From Bdellovibrionales bacterium CG10_big_fil_rev_8_21_14_0_10_45_34 (GTDB lineage Bacteria; Bdellovibrionota; Bdellovibrionia; Bdellovibrionales; 1-14-0-10-45-34), in the NCBI GenBank assembly GCA_002778785.1, contig PEZS01000012.1, forward strand, positions 1 to 15,959: DNA of 15,959 nucleotides, in the 5' to 3' direction. Positions 1,030 to 12,463 of this stretch are shown here, in pieces (positions within the stretch are counted from its first letter, which is position 1; every line of letters begins with the position of its first letter). Below the pieces are notes generated by a model. The model ran no database searches. It saw only the letters and a list, made by a program, of their open reading frames with translations, and was not told the DNA's origin. A program made the position numbers and the translations under genes.

Positions 1030-1058
1030 TTGTATGTGTCATATATTTATGACATAAT
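1030..1058 (+). promoter_or_regulatory. Toxin-antitoxin promoter with embedded operator palindrome
   Basis: A sigma70-like promoter is visible: TTGTAT (1030-1035), a 17-bp spacer and CATAAT (1053-1058, five of six consensus bases). A perfect palindrome GTCATA-TATT-TATGAC (1038-1053) fills most of the spacer and touches the -10. HTH antitoxins of this type commonly repress their own operon by binding such palindromes, so this is the likely operator. The predicted transcription start (about 1065) falls next to the GTG at 1066, implying a leaderless or nearly leaderless transcript. Confidence 0.55.
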
Positions 1059-1065
1059 TAAATTT

Positions 1066-1386
1066 GTGAAATCGATTCGAATCCACAAAAAAGTAAGCAA
1101 AGAGCTGGAGAAACTCGATTTCTCTATGAAGCGGCGGCTGGCCGAACTCTTCGCCGTCCTGAGTGAGGGTGAGAACCTCGGTATGCCGGTGAGTCGTCCC
1201 ATACCGATCATAGCTCATGGTGTGCATGAGTTGCGTGTTAAAGACCACGCCGGGCAGTATCGGGTCTTTTATTACACTAGGAAGGCAGATGCGATTTTAG
1301 TTTTTCATTTTTTTAAAAAGAAGACTCAAGAAACGCCGTCGCAAGAAATTGAAACCGCAACGGGACGGCTAAAGGAGATGTTATGA
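1066..1386 (+). CDS. HigB/RelE-superfamily toxin (Gp49-like)
   Basis: This is a predicted type II toxin of the RelE/HigB superfamily, phage-derived Gp49-like branch, whose characterised members are ribosome-dependent mRNA endonucleases. Recognisable parts are an N-terminal helix (VSKELEKLDFSMKRRLAELF), the segment HGVHELRVKDHAGQYRVFYY that forms the core sheet with basic residues, and the C-terminal VFHFFKKKTQETPSQEIETA, typical of this family. I chose GTG at 1066 (106 aa). A TTG at 1030 also opens the frame, but it coincides with the predicted -35 and operator, and no ribosome binding site precedes either codon. The gene overlaps its antitoxin by 4 bp (ATGA). Toxin-first order is normal for HigBA-type operons. 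Function rests on family resemblance and pairing, with high confidence in the pair and less in the start. Confidence 0.85.
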   Translation: MKSIRIHKKVSKELEKLDFSMKRRLAELFAVLSEGENLGMPVSRPIPIIAHGVHELRVKDHAGQYRVFYYTRKADAILVFHFFKKKTQETPSQEIETATGRLKEML

Positions 1387-1667
1387 AATCCTATTTTGAA
1401 GCCAAGAATCTAGATGAACTTTGTTCCCTTTTGGGTCTTCCTGAAAGTGAAGCACCAAAACTTCGAATGAGGCTTGATTTGGCGAAGGCCATTCGAAAGA
1501 CGATTGAAAAAAAAGAGCTAACTCATGCGCAAGCTTCTGTGAAAACAGGAATCGGCAGAACCGTTATCACGGCCATCATGAACGGCAACCTTGATAAAAT
1601 TTCAACTGACCGACTGATCGATATTGCGCAGGCTCTTGGCTTGAAACTGCATTTGAAGGTGGCCTAA
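1383..1667 (+). CDS. XRE/HigA-family antitoxin
   Basis: The 94-aa HTH protein has a helix-turn-helix region at about residues 46-90 (LTHAQASVKTGIGRTVITAI onwards, ending IAQALGLKL). It resembles the XRE-type antitoxins that accompany Gp49-like toxins. Its N-terminal 40 residues probably contact the toxin. The ATG overlaps the toxin stop as ATGA and is preceded by AAGGAG (1372-1377) at ideal spacing, so translation is probably coupled. Expected roles are neutralising the toxin by complex formation and repressing the operon at the 1038-1053 palindrome. No terminator is evident after the stop. Confidence 0.87.
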   Translation: MKSYFEAKNLDELCSLLGLPESEAPKLRMRLDLAKAIRKTIEKKELTHAQASVKTGIGRTVITAIMNGNLDKISTDRLIDIAQALGLKLHLKVA

Positions 1668-1797
1668 AAACATTTTCACACTGGCTTCCCATTACCACTG
1701 AACAACTGGTGCCCAGAACTGGACGACTTTCGAACTGCCTGCGTCATCTACTCTCAGAGTGCCGTTGCTTAGGCGCAATATCGAATCCTATCGAATA

Positions 1798-1826
1798 TTG
1801 ACACATTTTACGTCCACCGCTAATCT
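1798..1826 (+). promoter_or_regulatory. Candidate promoter for the 1988 gene
   Basis: A perfect TTGACA (1798-1803) is followed after 17 bp by TAATCT (1821-1826), a weak -10. It would give a leader of about 155 nt. The -35 match is good but the -10 is poor, so this is tentative. Confidence 0.3.
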
Positions 1827-1923
1827 CGTCGCATAGGTTAGGCAGATACCTTGCGCCTGCGCACTAAAGCTTGCACTCGAGCACTGTCATTGAGCTCATC
1901 GTTCTCTAAATCATATTAAACTT

Positions 1924-1942
1924 AACATCGCTCATCGATGTT
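1924..1942. repeat. Hairpin upstream of the 1988 gene
   Basis: AACATCG (1924-1930) and CGATGTT (1936-1942) form a 7-bp stem with a CTCAT loop, followed by two more T. It lies 45 bp before the ATG. It could be an operator, a weak terminator for the toxin-antitoxin transcript, or chance. Confidence 0.3.
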
Positions 1943-1987
1943 TTGGAGCAGGCGACAAAGCGTTAGTGGGCAATATGTGAGGTTTAT

Positions 1988-2641
1988 ATGAAGAAGCCAT
2001 TGGTTTCGCCGTCCTTTCTTAAACAGAAAGCCAGACAACTAAAAAAAGAGAAGTCGCTAAGTCAGCATCAGGCTCTTGAAGAGGCATCAAAGATGCTTGG
2101 GTTTTCGAATTATCGAAACTATCTAAATTTATTGGAGTCCAATGCTCCGAAGCCCAAGCCAGCAACCAAAGAACAGATTGAGGTTTTGAGGTTAGATAAA
2201 GAAGATATTGCTTTAAAAAGAGCCCATTCCTTGATTGCCGAGACTAAAAAATCCAAGACTCAACTACATGAATTGCTAAAAAACCTAAAGGCAGTCGAAA
2301 AATCAGACGCGGACGTTCAGGCAATTTGCGAGAAAAGCACCGCACTTAATAGATACCTTGAGCTGAATTTCTTTAGCGATTTCTTACGAGATGAGGAATG
2401 CGAAATCGAAGACTTTGCTCCTTACCACATAGCAAAGCAGGTCACTTTGAAGAATCTTGCGTTTAGATTTGAAGATGAAGTGCTTTTCGTTGAGGGCGAT
2501 TATGATCTGATACTCGAATTCGCCTTTGATTACGATAAAGATGATAAATCGGATACATTCAAAGATCAGGAAATGTTCGGCTCATTTGAGCTAACAATAG
2601 ATAAAAATTTGGAAATCAACTTCGAGAATCAAGACATTTGA
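1988..2641 (+). CDS. Hypothetical protein with Glyoxalase_8-like N-terminal helices
   Basis: The 217-aa protein is cytoplasmic by appearance, with no signal peptide or membrane span. Residues about 9-50 (LKQKARQLKKEK, SQHQALEEASKMLGFSNY) match the pattern of a small helical domain found at the N-terminus of many plasmid and mobile-element proteins, annotated as Glyoxalase_8 or glyoxalase-superfamily-like (LKxxAKxLxxx...SHxQALExxAxxLGFxxW). A Lys/Glu-rich helical, possibly coiled segment follows at about 55-120. The C-terminal half is acidic and probably beta-rich (VLFVEGDYDLILEFAFDYDK). The start is supported by GTGAGG. It converges on the restriction operon with 23 bp between stops. The function is unknown. 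Confidence 0.75.
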   Translation: MKKPLVSPSFLKQKARQLKKEKSLSQHQALEEASKMLGFSNYRNYLNLLESNAPKPKPATKEQIEVLRLDKEDIALKRAHSLIAETKKSKTQLHELLKNLKAVEKSDADVQAICEKSTALNRYLELNFFSDFLRDEECEIEDFAPYHIAKQVTLKNLAFRFEDEVLFVEGDYDLILEFAFDYDKDDKSDTFKDQEMFGSFELTIDKNLEINFENQDI

Positions 2642-2664
2642 CACAATTGGTAGACGATTTACTG

Positions 2665-3528
2665 TTAGCTAATGATGGTTCCGACCTTGAAAAGGGACGC
2701 GTCCAACGGTGAGCGAGCTTTAGGGTTCAACAAAATCTTTAAGTCTTTTCCTGAGTCCATCATGTCAACTAGATGTCTGGTAGATGTGAATACACCGCTG
2801 ACGGAGGGATTATTCAATAATCCCTCCGTTGAAATTGATGCCTGTTGGCTCTTCTGAATCGACTTCTGCTCAGGAAAGACAACCTCTACATCTTCATTCC
2901 TCTCAACGGTGTCGCCAAGATGAACCGAAACTTTAAAAGCCATTGCTCCGACTCCCAACAGCGCTCGAACAGCTAATGGTGGATACTGGTCAGCAAGGTC
3001 TGAGTCCCGCATTTCTCCCGTATTAATTGCGATGACCACTGCATCTTCAGGAGAAATTATTTTCTGCTCGATATATCTTTCAATTTTTCTCGCTTTGTCT
3101 GCAAAAGCACTGGTTACACGAAGAACCATCTTATCGACAGGAAGTGTTCCAGCTCGCCCAACTGGCGGACGTGTCACCTCGTTATCATTAGTACCGGCTT
3201 TCACGGCAACCGCTTCGATCCAAATTTTCTTACCATCAGGTAAAAGGACGCAAAAGTCTGGTCCTTCACCATTTACTTTGTGACCTTTGAATCCCGCAAC
3301 CTTGTAGAGTACCCACGAAAGATACATCTCCCACCATCGCTGTTGGGGATTTTCAACAGCATCTTGCTGAAAATGAGAATCCCCACAATATTGCCAGTGG
3401 TGCTCAAGAAGTTTAGAGCAATAGTCGCGTACCTCTTGTCGATTATGATGAGACTTATTGAAAGCGTAGACATCATTTTTCCCAGCCTTCTCTTCAAAGA
3501 AGTTATTAGTTCTTTTCCCTTGGCTCAT
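2665..3528 (-). CDS. Putative PD-(D/E)XK-like protein, last gene of the restriction operon
   Basis: The 287-aa product has a central block RWWEMYLSWVLYKVAGFKGH (about 64-83), then GPDF (89-92) and KKIWIEAV (100-107). The spacing of Glu67, Asp91 and Glu105 in helix-beta-beta order is that of a PD-(D/E)XK nuclease core. However, the usual lysine two residues after the second acid is Val107 here, so activity is uncertain; Lys110 is nearby. The segment VLRVTSAFADKARKIERYIE and DAVVIAINTGEM (163-173) complete an alpha/beta fold. I recall this architecture only in uncharacterised proteins. The ATG lies 3 nt after the upstream stop, with AGGA at good spacing, so it is co-translated with the operon. 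A 29-bp palindrome sits inside the 3' third. No terminator is visible downstream. Confidence 0.75.
   Translation of the reverse strand: MSQGKRTNNFFEEKAGKNDVYAFNKSHHNRQEVRDYCSKLLEHHWQYCGDSHFQQDAVENPQQRWWEMYLSWVLYKVAGFKGHKVNGEGPDFCVLLPDGKKIWIEAVAVKAGTNDNEVTRPPVGRAGTLPVDKMVLRVTSAFADKARKIERYIEQKIISPEDAVVIAINTGEMRDSDLADQYPPLAVRALLGVGAMAFKVSVHLGDTVERNEDVEVVFPEQKSIQKSQQASISTEGLLNNPSVSGVFTSTRHLVDMMDSGKDLKILLNPKARSPLDASLFKVGTIIS
2801..2829. repeat. 29-bp perfect palindrome within a coding region
   Basis: Arms ACGGAGGGATTATT (2801-2814) and AATAATCCCTCCGT (2816-2829) are exact reverse complements around a single C. It lies within the PD-(D/E)XK-like gene, where the minus strand encodes STEGLLNNPSV. 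A perfect 14-bp inverted repeat is unlikely by chance in a coding sequence. It would form a strong mRNA hairpin or cruciform. Confidence 0.85.
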
Positions 3529-3531
3529 TCA

Positions 3532-4308
3532 CTAATCCTGTGGTTCATTTTTTAATTGTTCCAAATTTGGCTTTATCGTCCCCAAAATCCTGTGTGCATG
3601 GTAGTAGCCTGCCAAAGTCTTCGAGCGCTCCGTTTCTTCTGGAGCGAACCATGACAGCGCCGAGCGAAATGAAGAGATAAAACAAAGAAAATCGACGGTA
3701 GCCATCGCTTTATAGAAGTTGATGGGTTCGCCATAGTCTTCGTCTGCATACGCCCCATGCAAGATTCCATGGCGGTTGGTATTATCGGTATGTGGATATT
3801 TACTAGATTCAATATAGAGATGCTGATCCGCATACTCTTTGAATGAGTCCATCATCGAAATGATTTCACCGACCGCACCGATTTTATATTTTTTCGCGTC
3901 ATCTCTACAGCTATCCGCTAAGGCAATAAAAATATTCCGAGTGGATACTCTGTCGCATTTTATCGAACGACTCTTCGCTAAGTTGGTCCCGGCGCCTTCT
4001 ATGACTGGCATCAAACCAGTCACGGCAATATGATTCAACCCAAGGAAATGTGCGCGTATCGACTCCGCGATGATCTCTTTATATTCCTTTATGAATGGGA
4101 CAACCGGATAACGACTTACCACCATGGCGGATATATTTTCAGGCGAGTAAATCAGGGATAATAAAGACTCCAACTCTTTCTGCGTGAACGCACCATTAGA
4201 GTCGATAATCTTTTTATACATCATGTTTAAAAAACCCATGGATATAAAGGGAGGGATAAACCAACCGACACTATTAAAAGCTGTCTTAAAATGATTTAAG
4301 TCATGCAT
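3532..4308 (-). CDS. HEPN-like protein with R-x4-H motif
   Basis: The 258-aa, mostly helical protein carries NRHGILHG at residues 178-185. Arg179 and His184 fit the R-x4-6-H signature of HEPN ribonucleases, and the Asn-Arg-His...His-Gly form is common among HEPN-like proteins of defence loci. Ahead of it, AVTGLMPVIEGAGTNLA (about 95-111) resembles the conserved helix of such proteins; after it come DYG (191-193) and a hydrophobic helix ATVDFLCFISSFRSAL. The N-terminal ~90 residues are unassigned. The ATG overlaps the end of the DUF2971 gene by 8 bp, implying coupled translation and possibly a complex. I infer RNA cleavage, perhaps on infection. The motif is seen directly; the activity is not. 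A non-catalytic HEPN scaffold is the alternative. Confidence 0.75.
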   Translation of the reverse strand: MHDLNHFKTAFNSVGWFIPPFISMGFLNMMYKKIIDSNGAFTQKELESLLSLIYSPENISAMVVSRYPVVPFIKEYKEIIAESIRAHFLGLNHIAVTGLMPVIEGAGTNLAKSRSIKCDRVSTRNIFIALADSCRDDAKKYKIGAVGEIISMMDSFKEYADQHLYIESSKYPHTDNTNRHGILHGAYADEDYGEPINFYKAMATVDFLCFISSFRSALSWFAPEETERSKTLAGYYHAHRILGTIKPNLEQLKNEPQD

Positions 4309-5212
4309 ACGGTTTTGGCTTCAACTTGTAGTGGTGAGGGTCAGGTATCATCTCGTAGATTCTAGCTTCCGGATTCCTATTAATCGCGAGATCAACAATC
4401 GAGTCCTTAGTTTCTTTTGGCATCTTGCAACCTAAGTATACAGAAGCCAGCTCGTCGTCATGATATGTGAGGCAGTGGTTTTTCTTACCCTCAAATAAAT
4501 TAACTAATATAGGCATATAGAGTCGGATTTCCTCCTCATACGCCCATTCTAAACTTTTTGTTTTTGTAATTTTCTTTGTGTATTCAGCCAGAATATCTTC
4601 AGTTTTGCGAAACATCGACTTTATCAAAAAGTCTTTATGGGATTCGTATAAGTAAGGTCTGTTGTTGGTGTACTCGACATCTTCAGCCAAAATCAACATT
4701 GAGTCCTTCTCCACATTTGGCGAGAACTCCAACACTGCACCTTGATGCTTTTCTGCGTAATGTGCCCATAAAAGATAATTATCAAACCGCTTAGAAGCAC
4801 AAAATATACCCGATAGCTCGAATGCCGTTTTAATGTGTGCTAAAGTTTCAGCTCCGCTTGCACGCAGACTCTCTTCATCCCAAATTTTTTTGGCAAAAAA
4901 CTCTTTTCTTAAGTTCGCCCTGTATGACTCTGATGCGTTTGAAAGAGCTGACCTAACTGCGACAAATATATCCGATTGCGCACTGCCGTTACCTTCAGGC
5001 AAGACTTCGTCTGAAGTAGACAATGCTATGAATTCATCGAGGTGAGCTTCTAGGTCAAAGGCGTCATAACCAAAAAGAGTCTGGATAGAAATGTCGAAGG
5101 GGTCGTTGAAATATAGAGGAGAGGAGAAAAGAAGAGTTCCGTTTTGCAAGATTGCCGTGGCACCAGCTATATCAACATATTTAAAAAGTTGTTTTTTCGC
5201 TGTTGCCGACAA
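4301..5212 (-). CDS. DUF2971 family protein
   Basis: The 303-aa protein matches the DUF2971 pattern in order: LFKYVDI near the N-terminus, LLFSSPLYFNDPFDIS (27-42), IFCASKRFDNYLLWAHYAEK (136-155) followed by HQGAVLEF, and LEWAYEEEIRLY (221-232). These are the family's conserved blocks and the length is typical. Its biochemical role is not established; members often occur in accessory and defence regions. The start is TTG at 5212, one base after the stop of the 75-aa gene, with GAAGGA upstream. No alternative start keeps the conserved LFKY block. It overlaps the HEPN gene by 8 bp, suggesting the two act together. Its position behind mod-res suggests an accessory defence role, which is inference. 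Confidence 0.85.
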   Translation of the reverse strand: MSATAKKQLFKYVDIAGATAILQNGTLLFSSPLYFNDPFDISIQTLFGYDAFDLEAHLDEFIALSTSDEVLPEGNGSAQSDIFVAVRSALSNASESYRANLRKEFFAKKIWDEESLRASGAETLAHIKTAFELSGIFCASKRFDNYLLWAHYAEKHQGAVLEFSPNVEKDSMLILAEDVEYTNNRPYLYESHKDFLIKSMFRKTEDILAEYTKKITKTKSLEWAYEEEIRLYMPILVNLFEGKKNHCLTYHDDELASVYLGCKMPKETKDSIVDLAINRNPEARIYEMIPDPHHYKLKPKPYA

Positions 5213-5213
5213 A

Positions 5214-5441
5214 TTAAAGGTCCTTCAGGTCAGGATAGTCCTCTAGAACTTCTTGAGGAACTTTAAGTCCACGATTGAGTGCAATCTCAACTGAGCTCTT
5301 GTGCTTAGAGAAATTTCCCGTAACGGTCGAATTGCCTCTGGGCGCTCCGAACTTAGCTTCATACTCAGTCTTGGTCATTTGCCAAGGCTGTTTCTCTATT
5401 TTTTCAGGTGAGCGCTCTTGCTCATTTGTTATGTCATCCAT
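5214..5441 (-). CDS. Small protein with VPxEVLxDYPDL motif
   Basis: The 75-aa hydrophilic protein lies 8 nt after res and 1 nt before the DUF2971 start. An acidic N-terminal tail leads to MTKTEYEAKFG (22-32), then HKSSVEIALNRGLKVPQEVL (47-66) and DYPDL. The pattern His-x3-Val-x2-Ala-Leu-x2-Gly-x-x-Val-Pro-x-Glu-Val-Leu-x-Asp-Tyr-Pro-Asp-Leu recurs in my experience as a terminal module of large phage or plasmid proteins; here it stands alone. AAGGGG precedes the ATG. It may bridge Res and the downstream proteins, be an adaptor, or be the residue of a larger gene. Confidence 0.7.
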   Translation of the reverse strand: MDDITNEQERSPEKIEKQPWQMTKTEYEAKFGAPRGNSTVTGNFSKHKSSVEIALNRGLKVPQEVLEDYPDLKDL

Positions 5442-5449
5442 GTTACCCC

Positions 5450-8131
5450 TTAGTCTTTAAACTCTCTAAAGTTCTCTACCATTTGTTTGAAGTTTTTCAT
5501 CTCGTACTTTTCAAACGATTCTTGATCGACAAAAACGAAGTCGTATTTTATTTTCTTTTGGACGCGATTTATATCTTCGCACCATTGCTTTAATCGGAAC
5601 ATTTTTAAAGGAACGTCCAAATCCTCTAAGCCCTTTGTTTCGACAATGTAAACCTCGTTATTAGCGACTTTTACGAAAAAGTCCGGGTAATAATTAGAAA
5701 TGTCGCCATCCGCATTCACATAGTCGATTTTGAAGTGAACCGCCAAATAGTTCTTCGAGTAAGAAATCACATCTTCGCATTCCTCAAGAAAGGTCGAAAA
5801 CTCAAGCTCTAGGTGACTATCACCGATGACCTTATTAAAAACGCTTTTCTTGGGAACTATAAACCCTTGTTCCTTAGCGATAAATGGACGGGTATTTCGT
5901 AACTTAATGTAGTCACGAATTTCTGCATCACCCTTATCCTGAACAGTAAGATCATTGATTTTCTTTTTAAAAGTTTCAATGATGGTTCGCGTAGCTTCAA
6001 CTTCCGAAAGATTTCTAACAGTATTCGGCGTGTCTAATTCAATTTCCTTGCCAAAAAGTTGGCTCGATATGAACTCTTTAACTTTTCCATAAAGGATGGC
6101 GTATCCGCTGACTAAACGTAGATCTTTCATTATTGAATGCGTAAAATAGCCGGCAACGCTGTTAAAATCGATTAAGCCAGACGCATCAAGAACCGTTGTA
6201 TGGGTAATATTCCCGGTTGTGATATCTTTAAAAACAATCTCCCTCTGCTCTTCGTCCGAAAAGTCCTGATATCCGACCGGCTTGTGTCCGAACTTCGACA
6301 CATCAAGATTATTTAGATTTTTATATTCTCGATAAATCCGTGGCGTCATAATTGGAATTTCAATATCTAATGCTTCTAAATCTTTCTTTTTATTTTCGCT
6401 ATCAATCTCAACGACCAATGGTGTTCGTGACTGCGAACCGCTTCCCATTGGACCGCGCTCAAGCTCCACGCCCTCTTGCTGAATGGACTCAACAAAATCC
6501 ATGAATGCTGGCGTTCCAACAATGCTTACAAATTCTTGGATATTTCCGGGATACATTTTACGAAGACCACGCCCCAAGGCTTGCTCTGGCAAAATGTTAT
6601 TTTGTGCCGTAAACGCTCTTAAACCCACAATTGTGGTCACATTTCGAACGTCCCAGCCTTCACGTAAAACCATCACAGAAATGATAGCTTTGTAGTGGCT
6701 ATCGTTGCTGTCGATAGTATTGGCTTGCTCACGCAACTTATCTAGCTCTTCTTTATTTTTTCCAGAGCTTGCTTCAGAGATTTCACCATTGTTTTTGGTG
6801 TGAATAACTAGAACTGCACCCTTAAGGTCGGCGTATGTATTTTCTAAATAGTCTGCCAGATCATCGCAGTTCTTTGTATCATCCGTCATGATGAAAAGGA
6901 TGGCTTTTTTGTCGAGTTTTAAATGCTCTTCATAAGCTTTGCGCCACTCAATAACTCCGAGATTGATGTAGTCCGAATACTTCTCTGTAAATTTAGAACT
7001 TTTCTTTTCAGTGAGCTTGGCACGGCTTGGACCATCTGGAACAAGGGGATGCTTTACTACGTTCTGCTTAATTGCTTCTACTAACGGGTAGTCAGATATT
7101 GTCTGAACAAAAATTGCTCCATTAGCGTGCTTTGGCGTCGCGGTAACATCGAGCTGTAATGAAAGCGCAGTTCCTTTTTGTTGCAGACGATTGTGAATAT
7201 CTTGGATAGATTTAAACCAAGCGTTCTGTGGATCATGAACGTGATGAGCCTCATCATTGATAACCATTAGCTCTTCGATATCTCTGACTATTTTACTCAG
7301 ATCAACTTTAGAGTCGTTCGTCGCCCCAGTCGGCTTTGTTCCCAAGAAATAGTCCATTGAGTCTTCATCCTCAGCGGAAGCTGGGATATCATTGCCCGAG
7401 TAAACTCGGTGAATATTCGTAAGAAAGATGTTTCCGATGGGATTTGTGATTCGCACATCATCTTGTATGTGTAGATCTAACTGAAAATCAGATTTCCACT
7501 CACGCCCATCAAAGCCATCATAAGGTAGTACGGGATCGTCTTTTAAGAAAATGCGAAGCCCTTTGAAGTCTTTATAAATACGATCAAGGACAATAATGTT
7601 AGGCGCAATCACCAAAAAATTTCGAGCCATAGGCGACGTCTCTTCATAAAGTTTATGAAAAAAGCTCCATGCCAATGCGAGACTAATAACTTTAGTTTTT
7701 CCTGCGCCAGTTGCCATTTTAACAACAAACCGCTTCCACGTTTCGTCGAACATATTTGCAGACACAGCGCCCGAGCTGTCGAATCTTATAAGATCGTATT
7801 TGTCCTTAACCTTCATCACATCCACCAAATAGACAATCGTCTCTAAGGCTTCACGTTGGGAAAAGAAGTATTGAAACTCAGATGATGAGTCACTTTTTTG
7901 AATAAGATGAGGTGTTTTAAACCACCAATTTAATAAGCTCTTGCTAGTCTGGGTTGCGCCTTCGTATCCGCTATCTCTGAACTGCTTAACTTTCTTCCGA
8001 AGCTCCGGGACGAGCGGTGGCATAAGCTTGTCTGCACTTGTACTTCGTAAGGTTTCATCCGCAGGAAACCATCGAATTGAAGGATCGAGAATGGCGTGTG
8101 GTGATTCTGGAAAGTTGGGATGCAAAGCCAT
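5450..8131 (-). CDS. res: Type III restriction enzyme Res subunit (helicase-nuclease)
   Basis: The 893-aa protein is an ATP-dependent translocase that, with Mod, cleaves unmodified DNA in type III systems. Visible motifs are Walker A KMATGAGKT (138-146), DEAH box INDEAHH (Asp293-His296), motif III DVTATPKH (Thr330-Thr332), motif V VLREGWDV (488-495) and motif VI QALGRGLRKM (517-526) with Arg521 and Arg524. The C-terminal PD-(D/E)XK nuclease is seen as YYPDFFVKV (Asp817) and IVETKGL with Glu831 and Lys833. All key residues are present and the length is normal, so it is predicted to be active. The junction with mod is TAATG (1-nt overlap), with AAGGA upstream, giving coupled translation. Confidence 0.96.
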   Translation of the reverse strand: MALHPNFPESPHAILDPSIRWFPADETLRSTSADKLMPPLVPELRKKVKQFRDSGYEGATQTSKSLLNWWFKTPHLIQKSDSSSEFQYFFSQREALETIVYLVDVMKVKDKYDLIRFDSSGAVSANMFDETWKRFVVKMATGAGKTKVISLALAWSFFHKLYEETSPMARNFLVIAPNIIVLDRIYKDFKGLRIFLKDDPVLPYDGFDGREWKSDFQLDLHIQDDVRITNPIGNIFLTNIHRVYSGNDIPASAEDEDSMDYFLGTKPTGATNDSKVDLSKIVRDIEELMVINDEAHHVHDPQNAWFKSIQDIHNRLQQKGTALSLQLDVTATPKHANGAIFVQTISDYPLVEAIKQNVVKHPLVPDGPSRAKLTEKKSSKFTEKYSDYINLGVIEWRKAYEEHLKLDKKAILFIMTDDTKNCDDLADYLENTYADLKGAVLVIHTKNNGEISEASSGKNKEELDKLREQANTIDSNDSHYKAIISVMVLREGWDVRNVTTIVGLRAFTAQNNILPEQALGRGLRKMYPGNIQEFVSIVGTPAFMDFVESIQQEGVELERGPMGSGSQSRTPLVVEIDSENKKKDLEALDIEIPIMTPRIYREYKNLNNLDVSKFGHKPVGYQDFSDEEQREIVFKDITTGNITHTTVLDASGLIDFNSVAGYFTHSIMKDLRLVSGYAILYGKVKEFISSQLFGKEIELDTPNTVRNLSEVEATRTIIETFKKKINDLTVQDKGDAEIRDYIKLRNTRPFIAKEQGFIVPKKSVFNKVIGDSHLELEFSTFLEECEDVISYSKNYLAVHFKIDYVNADGDISNYYPDFFVKVANNEVYIVETKGLEDLDVPLKMFRLKQWCEDINRVQKKIKYDFVFVDQESFEKYEMKNFKQMVENFREFKD

Positions 8132-10245
8132 TATTTTTTATCCTTTCCAATCAGTTCAATGACCGTCATCGTGTCGTTGCCGAAAATATCGACGACCTTA
8201 ATTGCGACCTTTTGGGTTTTCGACTCAAACTCATAGAATGGACTCATCAGCTCCAGTGAGCGGTCCTTTTTAGTTCGGAAAGACTGCCATTCATTCTCGA
8301 ATATATAGTCACCAGTCCAAATATCTTCGAAATCGCCAGTGGTTTCATTCTTGGTTCGAATAGTTTCTTTTTTACTTCCATAGTTGAAGTCTACTGACCA
8401 ATAGTCTACCCAGTCGCTCCATTTCTCCGTCAGTCGCTCCCGCGTTATTTTCCCTTTTGCATCTTTAACTATTTTGACGATCTGACCTTGTTCGATCACC
8501 ACCTTGCTGGCTTTATTTTTCAAGTGTTCTGCAATATCGTTCGTTGCATCTTGGCTATAGAATACAGAAAAATCTTTTAACTCAATTGCAACACTATCTT
8601 TTTTCTTGTGTGCTTTCGCTTCAATGTAGGCAACATCATGGAATGAAACTTGATTTCTCTCCACCGCGCGTTTGTCAAATACGTCGGCAGGAATATATTT
8701 CGGGGCAATATCGATGCCCTTGCGTTTTGCTTCTTCCAGCGAGTCAGGAAAAAGCCCCATCTCAAATTCAAAACCAAGAATGTCAATTTTAGTAATTTTC
8801 TTTTGTCGACACTCGGAGATTATTTCCTCAACAAAAAGACGTGAAACGGGCATATTTACGGGTCCGATTGCTACCAGGCGACCGTTCTTTTTTCCTTGGA
8901 AAATCTTGAATCCTGTTGTTCCTTCCGCTTTGTAGGCTTTAAGGATAAGGTCTATAAAAGCCTGTTCCTTTTCCACTTGTTGCTTAGCTTTTTGCTCTTC
9001 GCGCAGGTCAGGGTTTAAGCCCACATACATTTGCCGTTCATACTTACCAAGGTTCAGAATTTCAAAAGCTCGATAATCCTCACCACTATTTTTTAACTCG
9101 CGTTGGACTCCAATCATGCGCTTACGAGTCGTATGAATAGCAAATTTACCCAAATCGGCGGCTATCCACTTACGCTTTAATCGCTCCGCAACAATCGCCG
9201 TAGTACCTGATCCGCAAAAGAAATCAGCAACGAGGTCGCCTTCATTAGTGGTCGCATTAATGATTCGTTCTACTAGCGCTTCAGGCTTTTGTGTCGGATA
9301 TCCCAATCGCTCATTTGCCATAGGGTTTATGACTGGGATTTCCCAAACATCACTAGCTTCCTTGTCTGAGCTTTCAACGTAAAGATAGTTGCCATCTTTA
9401 TCCTTTTGCCACTCATTTTTCCCAAGCTCTTTGTTCCACTTTCTTAAAGGTTGCTTTCTAACCTCTTTAACCGGAATTCGAATTGGATTGTAGGTTATGT
9501 CTTTCGATCGTCCATACCAATAAATTGTGTTGTGAAATGAGTCGAAAGTCTGTGAGTTTGCCCCGTACTTATTTGTATAGTACCAGATGATTTCGTTATG
9601 AAAATTGTCACGACCAAATACCTCAGCAAGGACCAAATCCATAACTGAGCTAACTCTCCAGTCACAGTGGACAAAAATACTTCCATCCGGGGAAAGTAGA
9701 TCTCGCATTAATCGCAATCGCTCGTGCATCATAGCGACGAAAGAATCTACACCTTTGCCCCATGTGTCGCGGTATGCGATCTCTTCGAGAATACTCGGTT
9801 TCTTCGTCAGCTTTTCATCGCCGATTTCAATATCCATTGAAAAATCGGCACCAACATCAAAAGGAGGATCAATATAGATGAGTTTTAGTCCTCCCTGTTT
9901 CTCGATTTCATCACGGAGTGGTCCATTTTTAAGCGACGAAAGAATGAGTTTGTTGTCACCCCAAATTAACTTATTAGTCCAACCCCGAAGCTGGCGCCCG
10001 CGAGAATCAATATCAAAAAGACTCTGCTGAAGCTTGGTGTCAACTTCCTCGCGTGGTTCATCAACCTGCTCGATAGTTTGAAATGGCAAAACAATATTGC
10101 ATACGTCATTAGATTTTCCGTTCCAGACAAGTTCAACTTCGCGCTTATCTTCAAAAAGTAAAAATCTATACTTATCTGGAAGTGGTTTTCCCGCTTCGAT
10201 AAAGCGAGCGACTTCTTGTTGTTCAATCTCAGTTAGTTTTGCCAT
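8131..10245 (-). CDS. mod: Type III DNA methyltransferase Mod subunit
   Basis: The 704-aa protein is predicted to methylate adenine in an asymmetric site, provide specificity to Res and protect host DNA. The catalytic DPPF is at Asp126-Phe129 (KLIYIDPPFDVG), and the S-adenosylmethionine loop DFFCGSGTTA is at 341-350. Motif IV before motif I is the beta-class order shared by type III Mod proteins, with the target-recognition region expected between them (about 200-310). YPTQKPEALVERII (316-329) is the usual segment before motif I. The C-terminal half, to about residue 700, is lysine-rich and less familiar. The ATG overlaps the HTH gene by 13 bp, with AGGG at suitable spacing. I see no simple-sequence tract suggesting phase variation. 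The recognition site cannot be read from sequence alone. Confidence 0.95.
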   Translation of the reverse strand: MAKLTEIEQQEVARFIEAGKPLPDKYRFLLFEDKREVELVWNGKSNDVCNIVLPFQTIEQVDEPREEVDTKLQQSLFDIDSRGRQLRGWTNKLIWGDNKLILSSLKNGPLRDEIEKQGGLKLIYIDPPFDVGADFSMDIEIGDEKLTKKPSILEEIAYRDTWGKGVDSFVAMMHERLRLMRDLLSPDGSIFVHCDWRVSSVMDLVLAEVFGRDNFHNEIIWYYTNKYGANSQTFDSFHNTIYWYGRSKDITYNPIRIPVKEVRKQPLRKWNKELGKNEWQKDKDGNYLYVESSDKEASDVWEIPVINPMANERLGYPTQKPEALVERIINATTNEGDLVADFFCGSGTTAIVAERLKRKWIAADLGKFAIHTTRKRMIGVQRELKNSGEDYRAFEILNLGKYERQMYVGLNPDLREEQKAKQQVEKEQAFIDLILKAYKAEGTTGFKIFQGKKNGRLVAIGPVNMPVSRLFVEEIISECRQKKITKIDILGFEFEMGLFPDSLEEAKRKGIDIAPKYIPADVFDKRAVERNQVSFHDVAYIEAKAHKKKDSVAIELKDFSVFYSQDATNDIAEHLKNKASKVVIEQGQIVKIVKDAKGKITRERLTEKWSDWVDYWSVDFNYGSKKETIRTKNETTGDFEDIWTGDYIFENEWQSFRTKKDRSLELMSPFYEFESKTQKVAIKVVDIFGNDTMTVIELIGKDKK

Positions 10246-10454
10246 ACAGTCCCTTGCTTATCGTCTTCGATTTTTGAAATTGCACCGCCATCCATGACCC
10301 ACTGATCGACTTCGCGAGCTTTGAATTTCCAAAGTCGCCCCACGCGATGAGCCGGAATTTTCTTTTTTTCTAGCCAGCGATAAACAGTCTCTTTGGATAC
10401 TCCCAAGTGAGCACCAATTTCTTCGACCGATAGCCAACGCTCCGATTCACCCAC
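10233..10454 (-). CDS. Excisionase-like HTH protein, first gene of the restriction operon
   Basis: The 73-aa protein is almost entirely one DNA-binding domain of the HTH_17/excisionase (MerR-like) type: WLSVEEIGAHLGVSKETVYR (7-26), then WLEKKKIPAHRVGRLWKFK, followed by REVDQWV. The start is GTG at 10454, preceded by a perfect GGAGGA 6 nt upstream (10461-10466). It overlaps mod by 13 bp, so their translation is coupled. I infer a regulator of its own operon, analogous in role to the controller proteins of some restriction systems. A role in recombination, as for true excisionases, is possible but no integrase is present. Confidence 0.85.
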   Translation of the reverse strand: MGESERWLSVEEIGAHLGVSKETVYRWLEKKKIPAHRVGRLWKFKAREVDQWVMDGGAISKIEDDKQGTVWQN

Positions 10455-11422: not shown

Positions 11423-12463
11423 ATGAATACATTTAAAAATTTGGTCGTCATAACTTCTTTAAGTATTGGTCTAAGCGCTTGCGGTGGCGGAGGAGGAAGC
11501 TCCACATCTTTGCCGTCCAACGGCGATTCCAATCCTGGCGGTGGAAGCGGAGGTGGCGGATCACCTAGCGGTGGCAACGGTACTGCTTCGTACTATGGCT
11601 TTAATAGTGCGAACAGTATTGTGTCGAATGCCTTACCACCATTCGTTGCTGGCGAGCAGTTTGTGGTGACTGGGGAAGTCGCATTCGTTGTTTCCGATCT
11701 GGACAATAGAACCGCTGATTACATGATCTACGAGCCGATCTGTCTTTCGGGGGTTTTAAGCTATGACTACAATGCAGTCTTAGTAAAAGGCGATCCAACG
11801 GCACCGTCTCGCGTACGCATCTCGGCAAGCTCAACGAGTACAACGATCACCGAGTACACTGAACTTCAGTCAGGCGCAGGGTATGTTGATAAAACTACGG
11901 AGACTAATACAGGCATCTGTAACAACGGCGAGTTTTATTCTTCTGTGAGCCAATGGATTGTATTCCAGAATGGAAGATCGATCTTGCTAAAAGATATGGA
12001 CAATAACATTTACTTTGGCTTTAGAAATCAGCTTGTTGATAAATCCTTGCTGTTGGCGAAGCAGTACAAAGCCTATCATCAACTTAATAACGGAGCTGTT
12101 GATGTCGCGAACAAGCTTACTACTTGGAGCTCAGCTTCAGCAAGCGTCGTGAACCTCGACGCTTCGTCTTCGCCATCAGATTCTTCGTTTGGCTTTAGCT
12201 CCCCAAACACGACAGCGAAAGGTTTCGCAAGCACTACACGAGGATCTCACTATACGATTCAAGGCAACTTCTCTAGAGTGTACGACAATCAAACTGCAAC
12301 TGTTCCAATGATTGGAGTGACTGCGACACTCTCGGGGAAGAATATTTCGATTCAGAATGCTGTTCACCACACCTGCGGATCTGGCGACGTTTATTCCCAT
12401 AATGGACAGAATGTTTGCGATTTCGTAGGATCTGGCGCCGTCAGCTTCTATTTCGAACAATAA
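11423..12463 (+). CDS. Glycine-linker lipoprotein
   Basis: The 346-aa exported lipoprotein has a signal peptide MNTFKNLVVITSLSIGLSAC whose lipobox Leu-Ser-Ala-Cys20 is followed by a Gly5 run and a Gly/Ser/Asn/Pro-rich linker to about residue 55. The rest is a Ser/Thr-rich, beta-type domain ending in FVGSGAVSFYFEQ, which looks like an amphipathic terminal strand. Cysteines at about 107, 166, 319 and 333 may form disulfides. The start has a perfect AGGAGG (11412-11417). The CGGGGG lipoprotein style is common in Bdellovibrio. It is the exported component of the XRE-led operon. No catalytic motif was seen; a surface or outer-membrane role is inferred. Confidence 0.85.
   Translation: MNTFKNLVVITSLSIGLSACGGGGGSSTSLPSNGDSNPGGGSGGGGSPSGGNGTASYYGFNSANSIVSNALPPFVAGEQFVVTGEVAFVVSDLDNRTADYMIYEPICLSGVLSYDYNAVLVKGDPTAPSRVRISASSTSTTITEYTELQSGAGYVDKTTETNTGICNNGEFYSSVSQWIVFQNGRSILLKDMDNNIYFGFRNQLVDKSLLLAKQYKAYHQLNNGAVDVANKLTTWSSASASVVNLDASSSPSDSSFGFSSPNTTAKGFASTTRGSHYTIQGNFSRVYDNQTATVPMIGVTATLSGKNISIQNAVHHTCGSGDVYSHNGQNVCDFVGSGAVSFYFEQ

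Follow-up and report, generated by a model that had tools for sequence, protein, structure and literature searches.

The window analysed here, the 15,959-nt contig PEZS01000012.1 of Bdellovibrionales bacterium CG10_big_fil_rev_8_21_14_0_10_45_34, is one whole contig (C12) of a 3.06-Mb genome and carries, in its list of open reading frames, a minus-strand run of seven genes (10454 to 2665). They encode, in order, a helix-turn-helix (HTH) protein, a DNA methyltransferase (Mod), a restriction protein (Res), a 75-aa protein (p75), a DUF2971 protein, a HEPN-type protein and a PD-(D/E)XK-like protein (PD). We put at about 0.6 the probability that this run forms a mobile defence island: a type III-like core, HTH-Mod-Res-p75, that has acquired just behind its last gene an autonomous trio, DUF2971-HEPN-PD. 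The core is best read as a type III-like restriction system that has, at its 3' end, a slot able to receive other defence modules; an abortive-infection trio probably fills it here. We favour this modular reading because the core is found with a different follower (a TrlF-family ATPase) in genome G045, the trio persists under purifying selection without Mod-Res in G078, and the breakpoints are exact to the gene; it is further favoured by the full set together with the convergent neighbour orf217 in G209, by the conservation of the HEPN motif and by the HEPN relatives in P2-like prophages.

Relatives were sought in 368 genomes of the phylum and in a second, GTDB-based contig set; these searches reach mainly close relatives, and every absence outside them is to be read within that scope. 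In G045, which belongs to another family of the order (locus L024), HTH-Mod-Res-p75 recurs at ~77% nucleotide identity with the same gaps (blastn, window 5265-9228), and p75 is followed by a 1,021-aa TrlF-family ATPase (NF045780, 677.8 bits, cut-off 350) instead of the trio. The trio itself was found at 81% nucleotide identity, with the same internal gaps (blastn, window 2714-5195), in G078, a genome labelled as the same order (L014/L030), where a histidine-kinase gene precedes it by 39 nt and type IV secretion system (conjugation) genes are nearby. No Mod-Res was present in the 17.8 kb around this trio, and no Res match was listed for G078 in the phylum search. In the junction alignment, homology breaks off where p75 stops and DUF2971 starts, and again at the stop of PD. 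In G161 (L040) the core including p75 is present, followed by only ~100 nt up to the contig end, which resemble neither the trio nor TrlF. As judged from these comparisons, the operon is made up of two separable modules with a gene-exact joint between p75 and DUF2971; the boundary is placed after p75 rather than after Res because p75 stays with Mod-Res in G045 and G161 and the trio occurs without Mod-Res in G078.

The phylum search recovered Res relatives followed by p75 in 4 genomes (our own, G209, G045 and G161), close PD relatives also in 4 (our own, G209, G078 and G102) and the full seven-gene set in 2 (our own and G209). A scan of the GTDB-based contig set for close HEPN relatives returned 5 loci, with Mod-Res only at the metagenome-assembled genome (MAG) KLAP30, which is G209. 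The preliminary description of this DNA had proposed a composite defence system in which a type III restriction operon is extended by four extra genes. The seven genes are indeed a real, conserved and horizontally transferred unit, present in the window and in G209, but the four extras do not form a single extension of Mod-Res: they are therefore to be split, p75 being part of the core and the three others another module. The expected association of the three distal genes with each other was recovered, since they recur as a unit in the window, G209 and G078, whereas their anticipated recurrence beside mod-res in unrelated genomes was not, the trio adjoining Mod-Res in one island lineage only across both collections. 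Thus, the lack of recurrent association that had been named as grounds for refutation applies to mod-res in unrelated genomes and not within the trio.

Selection was examined through dN/dS. Between the window and G209, the values are 0.03-0.13 for Res, p75 (0.05), the trio and orf217, and between the window and G078, in which the trio has no linkage to Mod-Res, they are 0.032-0.062 for the trio. On these ratios, purifying selection acts on both modules, and on the trio even when Mod-Res is not linked to it. The preliminary description was right that the seven genes overlap or lie no more than 8 nt apart: the gaps are -13 nt (HTH/Mod), -1 (Mod/Res), +8 (Res/p75), +1 (p75/DUF2971), -8 (DUF2971/HEPN) and +3 (HEPN/PD). 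Because the gaps inside each module are the same to the nucleotide in other genomes and dN/dS is low, this packing exceeds chance. It suggests that the seven genes are transcribed together, starting upstream of the gene for HTH, which is a probable operon regulator; promoter-like matches numbered 12 against a shuffled mean of 17.5, that is, fewer than the shuffled expectation. Within each module the coupled starts are an ancestral trait, and they are uninformative on coupling between the modules.

The joined form was found in G209 (L029/L039/L086-087), where the seven genes are accompanied by orf217 and by the genes that follow as far as o294; the tool labels this genome as related to the window genome at the phylum level only. 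As seven genes and a flanking gene recur in so distant a relative, the comparison indicates that the joined form moved horizontally between distant Bdellovibrionota. The longest shared block has 88.6% identity over 7.6 kb, and the identity is mosaic: 92-100% over window positions 1600-6300, apart from a stretch of the HEPN gene at 82-87%, and ~75-80% across a large part of 6400-10000. The most similar tract runs from within res, whose 3' part it covers, through p75 and the trio, and thus spans the joint. At 6300-6400, inside res, identity steps from 92-100% downstream to mostly 75-85% upstream, suggesting a possible recombination breakpoint within this gene.

Within the core, Mod carries DPPF at aa 126 and FCGSG at aa 343 with a variable region between them, the order (motif IV before motif I) of the beta class, and its PDB match is the Mod subunit of EcoP15I (3.6e-12). 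Around aa 200-320, amino acid identity is 7-50% versus mostly 65-100% elsewhere in all five comparisons among six Mods, a pattern that looks like exchange of target-recognition regions. The target-recognition stretch of the window is unlike that of every relative, even within the otherwise 88.6% identical G209 island. The motifs of Res are intact (Walker A GAGKT at 142, DEAH at 293 and PD...ExK PDFFVKVANNEVYIVETK at 816), in keeping with a type III Res, and Res had no sequence match in the PDB. Behind Res, p75 is 81-99% identical in G045, G161 and G209. Queries with Res and p75 against viral contigs found nothing.

The core shares with type III restriction-modification (R-M) systems of the EcoP15I/EcoP1I kind a mod gene directly before res, a beta-class Mod with a central variable recognition region, and a Res with superfamily 2 (SF2) helicase and C-terminal nuclease motifs; it differs from them in the divergent Res, the added HTH and p75, and the three unrelated genes behind it. 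Biochemically, type III cleavage is characterised by a requirement for ATP and for two sites in inverse orientation, and by hemimethylation protection. The methylation-associated defence system (MADS) was also considered, as the first-gene HTH protein resembles MAD1 and is followed by a DNA methyltransferase gene. However, the HTH protein scored 72.4 bits against the MAD1 model, under the cut-off of 80, and the operon contains no MADS kinase or ATPase genes, so that membership was rejected. Two rhizobial plasmids carry Mod-Res at ~66-74% identity without p75. A plasmid of Sphingomonas insulae (L043) carries another extended type III-like operon, in which a distant Mod-Res is followed in one direction by genes for an AAA ATPase, a restriction endonuclease, a PD-(D/E)XK protein and a UvrD helicase.

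Turning to the trio, the DUF2971 protein scores above the gathering threshold of PF11185 (E 3.6e-8, 35.1 bits versus 22) and has the invariant motifs NDPF, W-HYAE and W-YE-E-R. It also matches over its length the PADLOC candidate family PDC-S31 (6.3e-38), a DUF2971 defence candidate without a known mechanism, from which it differs in belonging to a trio. An ADP-ribosyltransferase-like fold, to which its motifs might point, is speculation. Neither Pfam nor NCBIfam has a family matching the HEPN or the PD protein, and the HEPN protein matched nothing in any family library scanned. In 13 HEPN sequences, down to 20% identity, N178, R179 and H184 of the R179-H180-x3-H184 motif are invariant and H180 is once N. 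This conforms to the HEPN RNase motif as published (PMC3710099), Rx4-6H in which R is followed by a polar residue (N, D or H), and on this ground the protein is likely an RNase. The PD protein matches the PADLOC models PD-T7-1 (8.7e-8) and PD-T7-5 (1.4e-7), both classed as PD(D/E)XK proteins (PMC10952713), locally over some 110 residues; differences from these two are its place in a three-gene module and the absence of the canonical Lys. P90-D91 and E105 are invariant, and the residue two past E105 is not Lys in any of five sequences, so that the PD...(D/E)xK catalytic signature is incomplete; that the invariant K145 stands in for the Lys is our conjecture. Set against the alpha-beta-beta-beta-alpha-beta core of PD-(D/E)XK nucleases, the predicted structure runs, in order, H61-78, E81-84, E92-95, E101-107, H141-154 and E163-169, with a mean predicted local distance difference test (pLDDT) of only 39.9. 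PDB sequence and profile searches with the trio families gave no credible match.

According to the favoured modular reading, the core would methylate and cut foreign DNA as type III systems do, and the trio would be a second line, of the abortive-infection type, able to function without Mod-Res. The HEPN protein would act as an RNase to halt translation or growth, PD would act on DNA or serve as a DNA-binding sensor, and the DUF2971 protein could be a regulator or a further enzyme. Several points weigh against this reading. The slot is known from few cases, with two different followers and one truncated core, and of the four cores two are the same island and one stops ~100 nt past p75. No established activity of DUF2971 was found in the literature searched, the PD protein may be inactive, its activity being uncertain because the canonical Lys is absent, and the AlphaFold models of DUF2971 (pLDDT 34.5) and PD are too poor for a fold search. 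Moreover, a most similar tract lying over the joint would be expected if the joined function were selected.

This last point bears on the main rival, a guard arrangement like that of PrrC with the type Ic system EcoprrI. Here Mod/Res, perhaps via p75, would sense either foreign DNA or that a phage anti-restriction protein is inhibiting it, and would then release the trio as a cell-level effector. PrrC offers a precedent for an RNase that guards restriction: its linked R-M enzyme holds it inactive, and a phage anti-restriction factor switches it on (PMC2610378). That HEPN genes occur beside restriction systems is already known, R-M links having been described for at least 16 HEPN clades (PMC3710099). 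Packing into one operon and the maintenance of the joined form, with its high-identity tract, in distant genomes also agree with integration. We nevertheless consider it unlikely: the trio is under strong purifying selection without Mod-Res in G078, the core is kept without the trio in G045, and the other HEPN relatives show no link to type III R-M. Since the modules are separable, an obligatory machine of Mod/Res sensor and trio effector is not supported; the tract across the joint leaves room for cooperation between core and trio. Like PrrC/EcoprrI and RloC, in which a HEPN RNase accompanies type I R-M, the window has a HEPN-type RNase candidate in one locus with a restriction system, but that system is type III-like, the partners are DUF2971 and PD, the trio also occurs without R-M, and the 258-aa HEPN protein has no ATPase match of any kind, unlike the ABC-type ATPase fusions PrrC and RloC.

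Alternatively, the trio might be a toxin-antitoxin-like addiction or island-stabilisation cassette, not primarily anti-phage, in which, for example, DUF2971 or PD neutralises the HEPN RNase. HEPN toxins with an adjacent partner gene are common, as in the MNT/HEPN pairs (PMC7641770), the 8-nt translational overlap of DUF2971 and HEPN is kept in 3/3 loci, and the trio is located on islands and beside conjugation genes. Yet close HEPN relatives mostly lack DUF2971 or PD neighbours, so that neither would be a general antitoxin, and DUF2971 mostly occurs without a HEPN gene, which makes this explanation rather improbable. Doubtful, too, is the idea that p75 is a plug-in point, the Res/p75 end of the core coupling physically to interchangeable effectors (the trio in two genomes, TrlF in a third) that restriction activity, or its inhibition by a phage, would trigger. 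Chance packing, with the trio a functionally meaningless passenger landed behind res, is very improbable: the joint is seen in one island lineage only and a single recombination event could account for its 1-nt gap, but the three genes are intact and under purifying selection, and the joined form has spread between distant genomes.

A separately inherited module at the end of an operon suggests that bacterial phage defence may use interchangeable parts as building blocks. Restriction loci with a linked RNase, such as PrrC, are known; in this case core and trio can be observed together in some genomes and separately in others, and the joint can be placed exactly. Since the same core has different followers and the same trio different hosts, module swapping can test whether co-location means cooperation. 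The analysis also yields a conserved candidate defence module of three genes and an apparently undescribed HEPN family with members in P2-like prophages; the trio, the HEPN family and the slot appear undescribed in the literature and databases searched.

Further afield, relatives of the trio proteins are mostly encoded singly. The more remote HEPN relatives, from Shewanella, Providencia, Acinetobacter, Stenotrophomonas, Erwinia and contigs of IMG/VR, had neither Mod-Res of this kind nor a PD homologue nearby. Several adjoin integrase and cI genes in P2-like prophages, including Yersinia phage vB_YenM_56.17, and P2-like phages are documented as carrying defence hotspots (PMC9122126). The family members at four P2-like phage loci (L067, L068, L070 and L077) are 384-483 aa long, with extra N-terminal and mostly also C-terminal parts; the gene, which adjoins integrase and cI and carries no family annotation, is a candidate for prophage defence. 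Searches of viral contigs returned nothing for single PD and HEPN queries and distant relatives only for alignment queries. The DUF2971-HEPN DNA had no match in E. coli genomes, and a recurrent DUF2971-HEPN pair was rejected, the two genes having been seen within ~1.2 kb in Pseudocolwellia (L032) and not again at other loci. An obligatory role of orf217 was likewise rejected: in the phylum it occurs mostly without a PD gene, and its relative orientation differs in G102. In that genome (L015, 796-4163), orf217 and a 73% identical PD homologue are adjacent, beside a Dam-family methyltransferase and a DUF7687 restriction-enzyme-like gene, placing a PD gene next to another kind of restriction system.

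Table 1. Features of the defence island in the window, with the evidence for each.
Feature	Position	Strand	Evidence
HTH_17/excisionase-type DNA-binding protein, 73 aa, first gene	10233..10454	-	HTH_17 E 7.7e-16; excise TIGR01764 2.1e-17
Mod, beta-class N6-adenine methyltransferase of type III kind, 704 aa	8131..10245	-	N6_N4_Mtase 3.5e-48; MTase_III 1.1e-117
Hypervariable target-recognition stretch of Mod, ~aa 200-320	9266..9649	-	Mod comparison; DNA alignment to G209 breaks
Res, SF2 helicase with C-terminal PD-(D/E)XK nuclease, 893 aa	5450..8131	-	ResIII 3e-16; REase_III 2.7e-18; motifs
p75, 75 aa, last gene of restriction core	5214..5441	-	after Res in G045, G161, G209
Joint of the two modules	5195..5265	.	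G045 homology stops on one side, G078 homology on the other
DUF2971 protein, 303 aa, TTG start	4301..5212	-	PF11185; PADLOC PDC-S31
HEPN-type predicted RNase, 258 aa	3532..4308	-	N178-R179-H180-x3-H184 in 13 divergent sequences
PD-(D/E)XK-like protein, 287 aa	2665..3528	-	related to PD-T7-1 and PD-T7-5; low-confidence model
orf217, convergent neighbour of trio	1988..2641	+	beside trio in G209 (94%); beside PD gene in G102 (54%)

Elsewhere in the window, a toxin-antitoxin pair (1030-1667, plus strand) consists of a Gp49/RelE-like toxin (PF05973, 1.3e-19) followed by an HTH_37 antitoxin. An IS66-type TnpA gene (NF047593; 15425-15751, plus strand) lies at the contig end, where it is probably the reason that the assembly stops. 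A Gly-rich lipoprotein-like gene adjoins a Cro/CI-type regulator both in the window (11423-12463, plus strand) and in G045 (L024, 3507-4637), with 29% identity, and is perhaps part of the island backbone.

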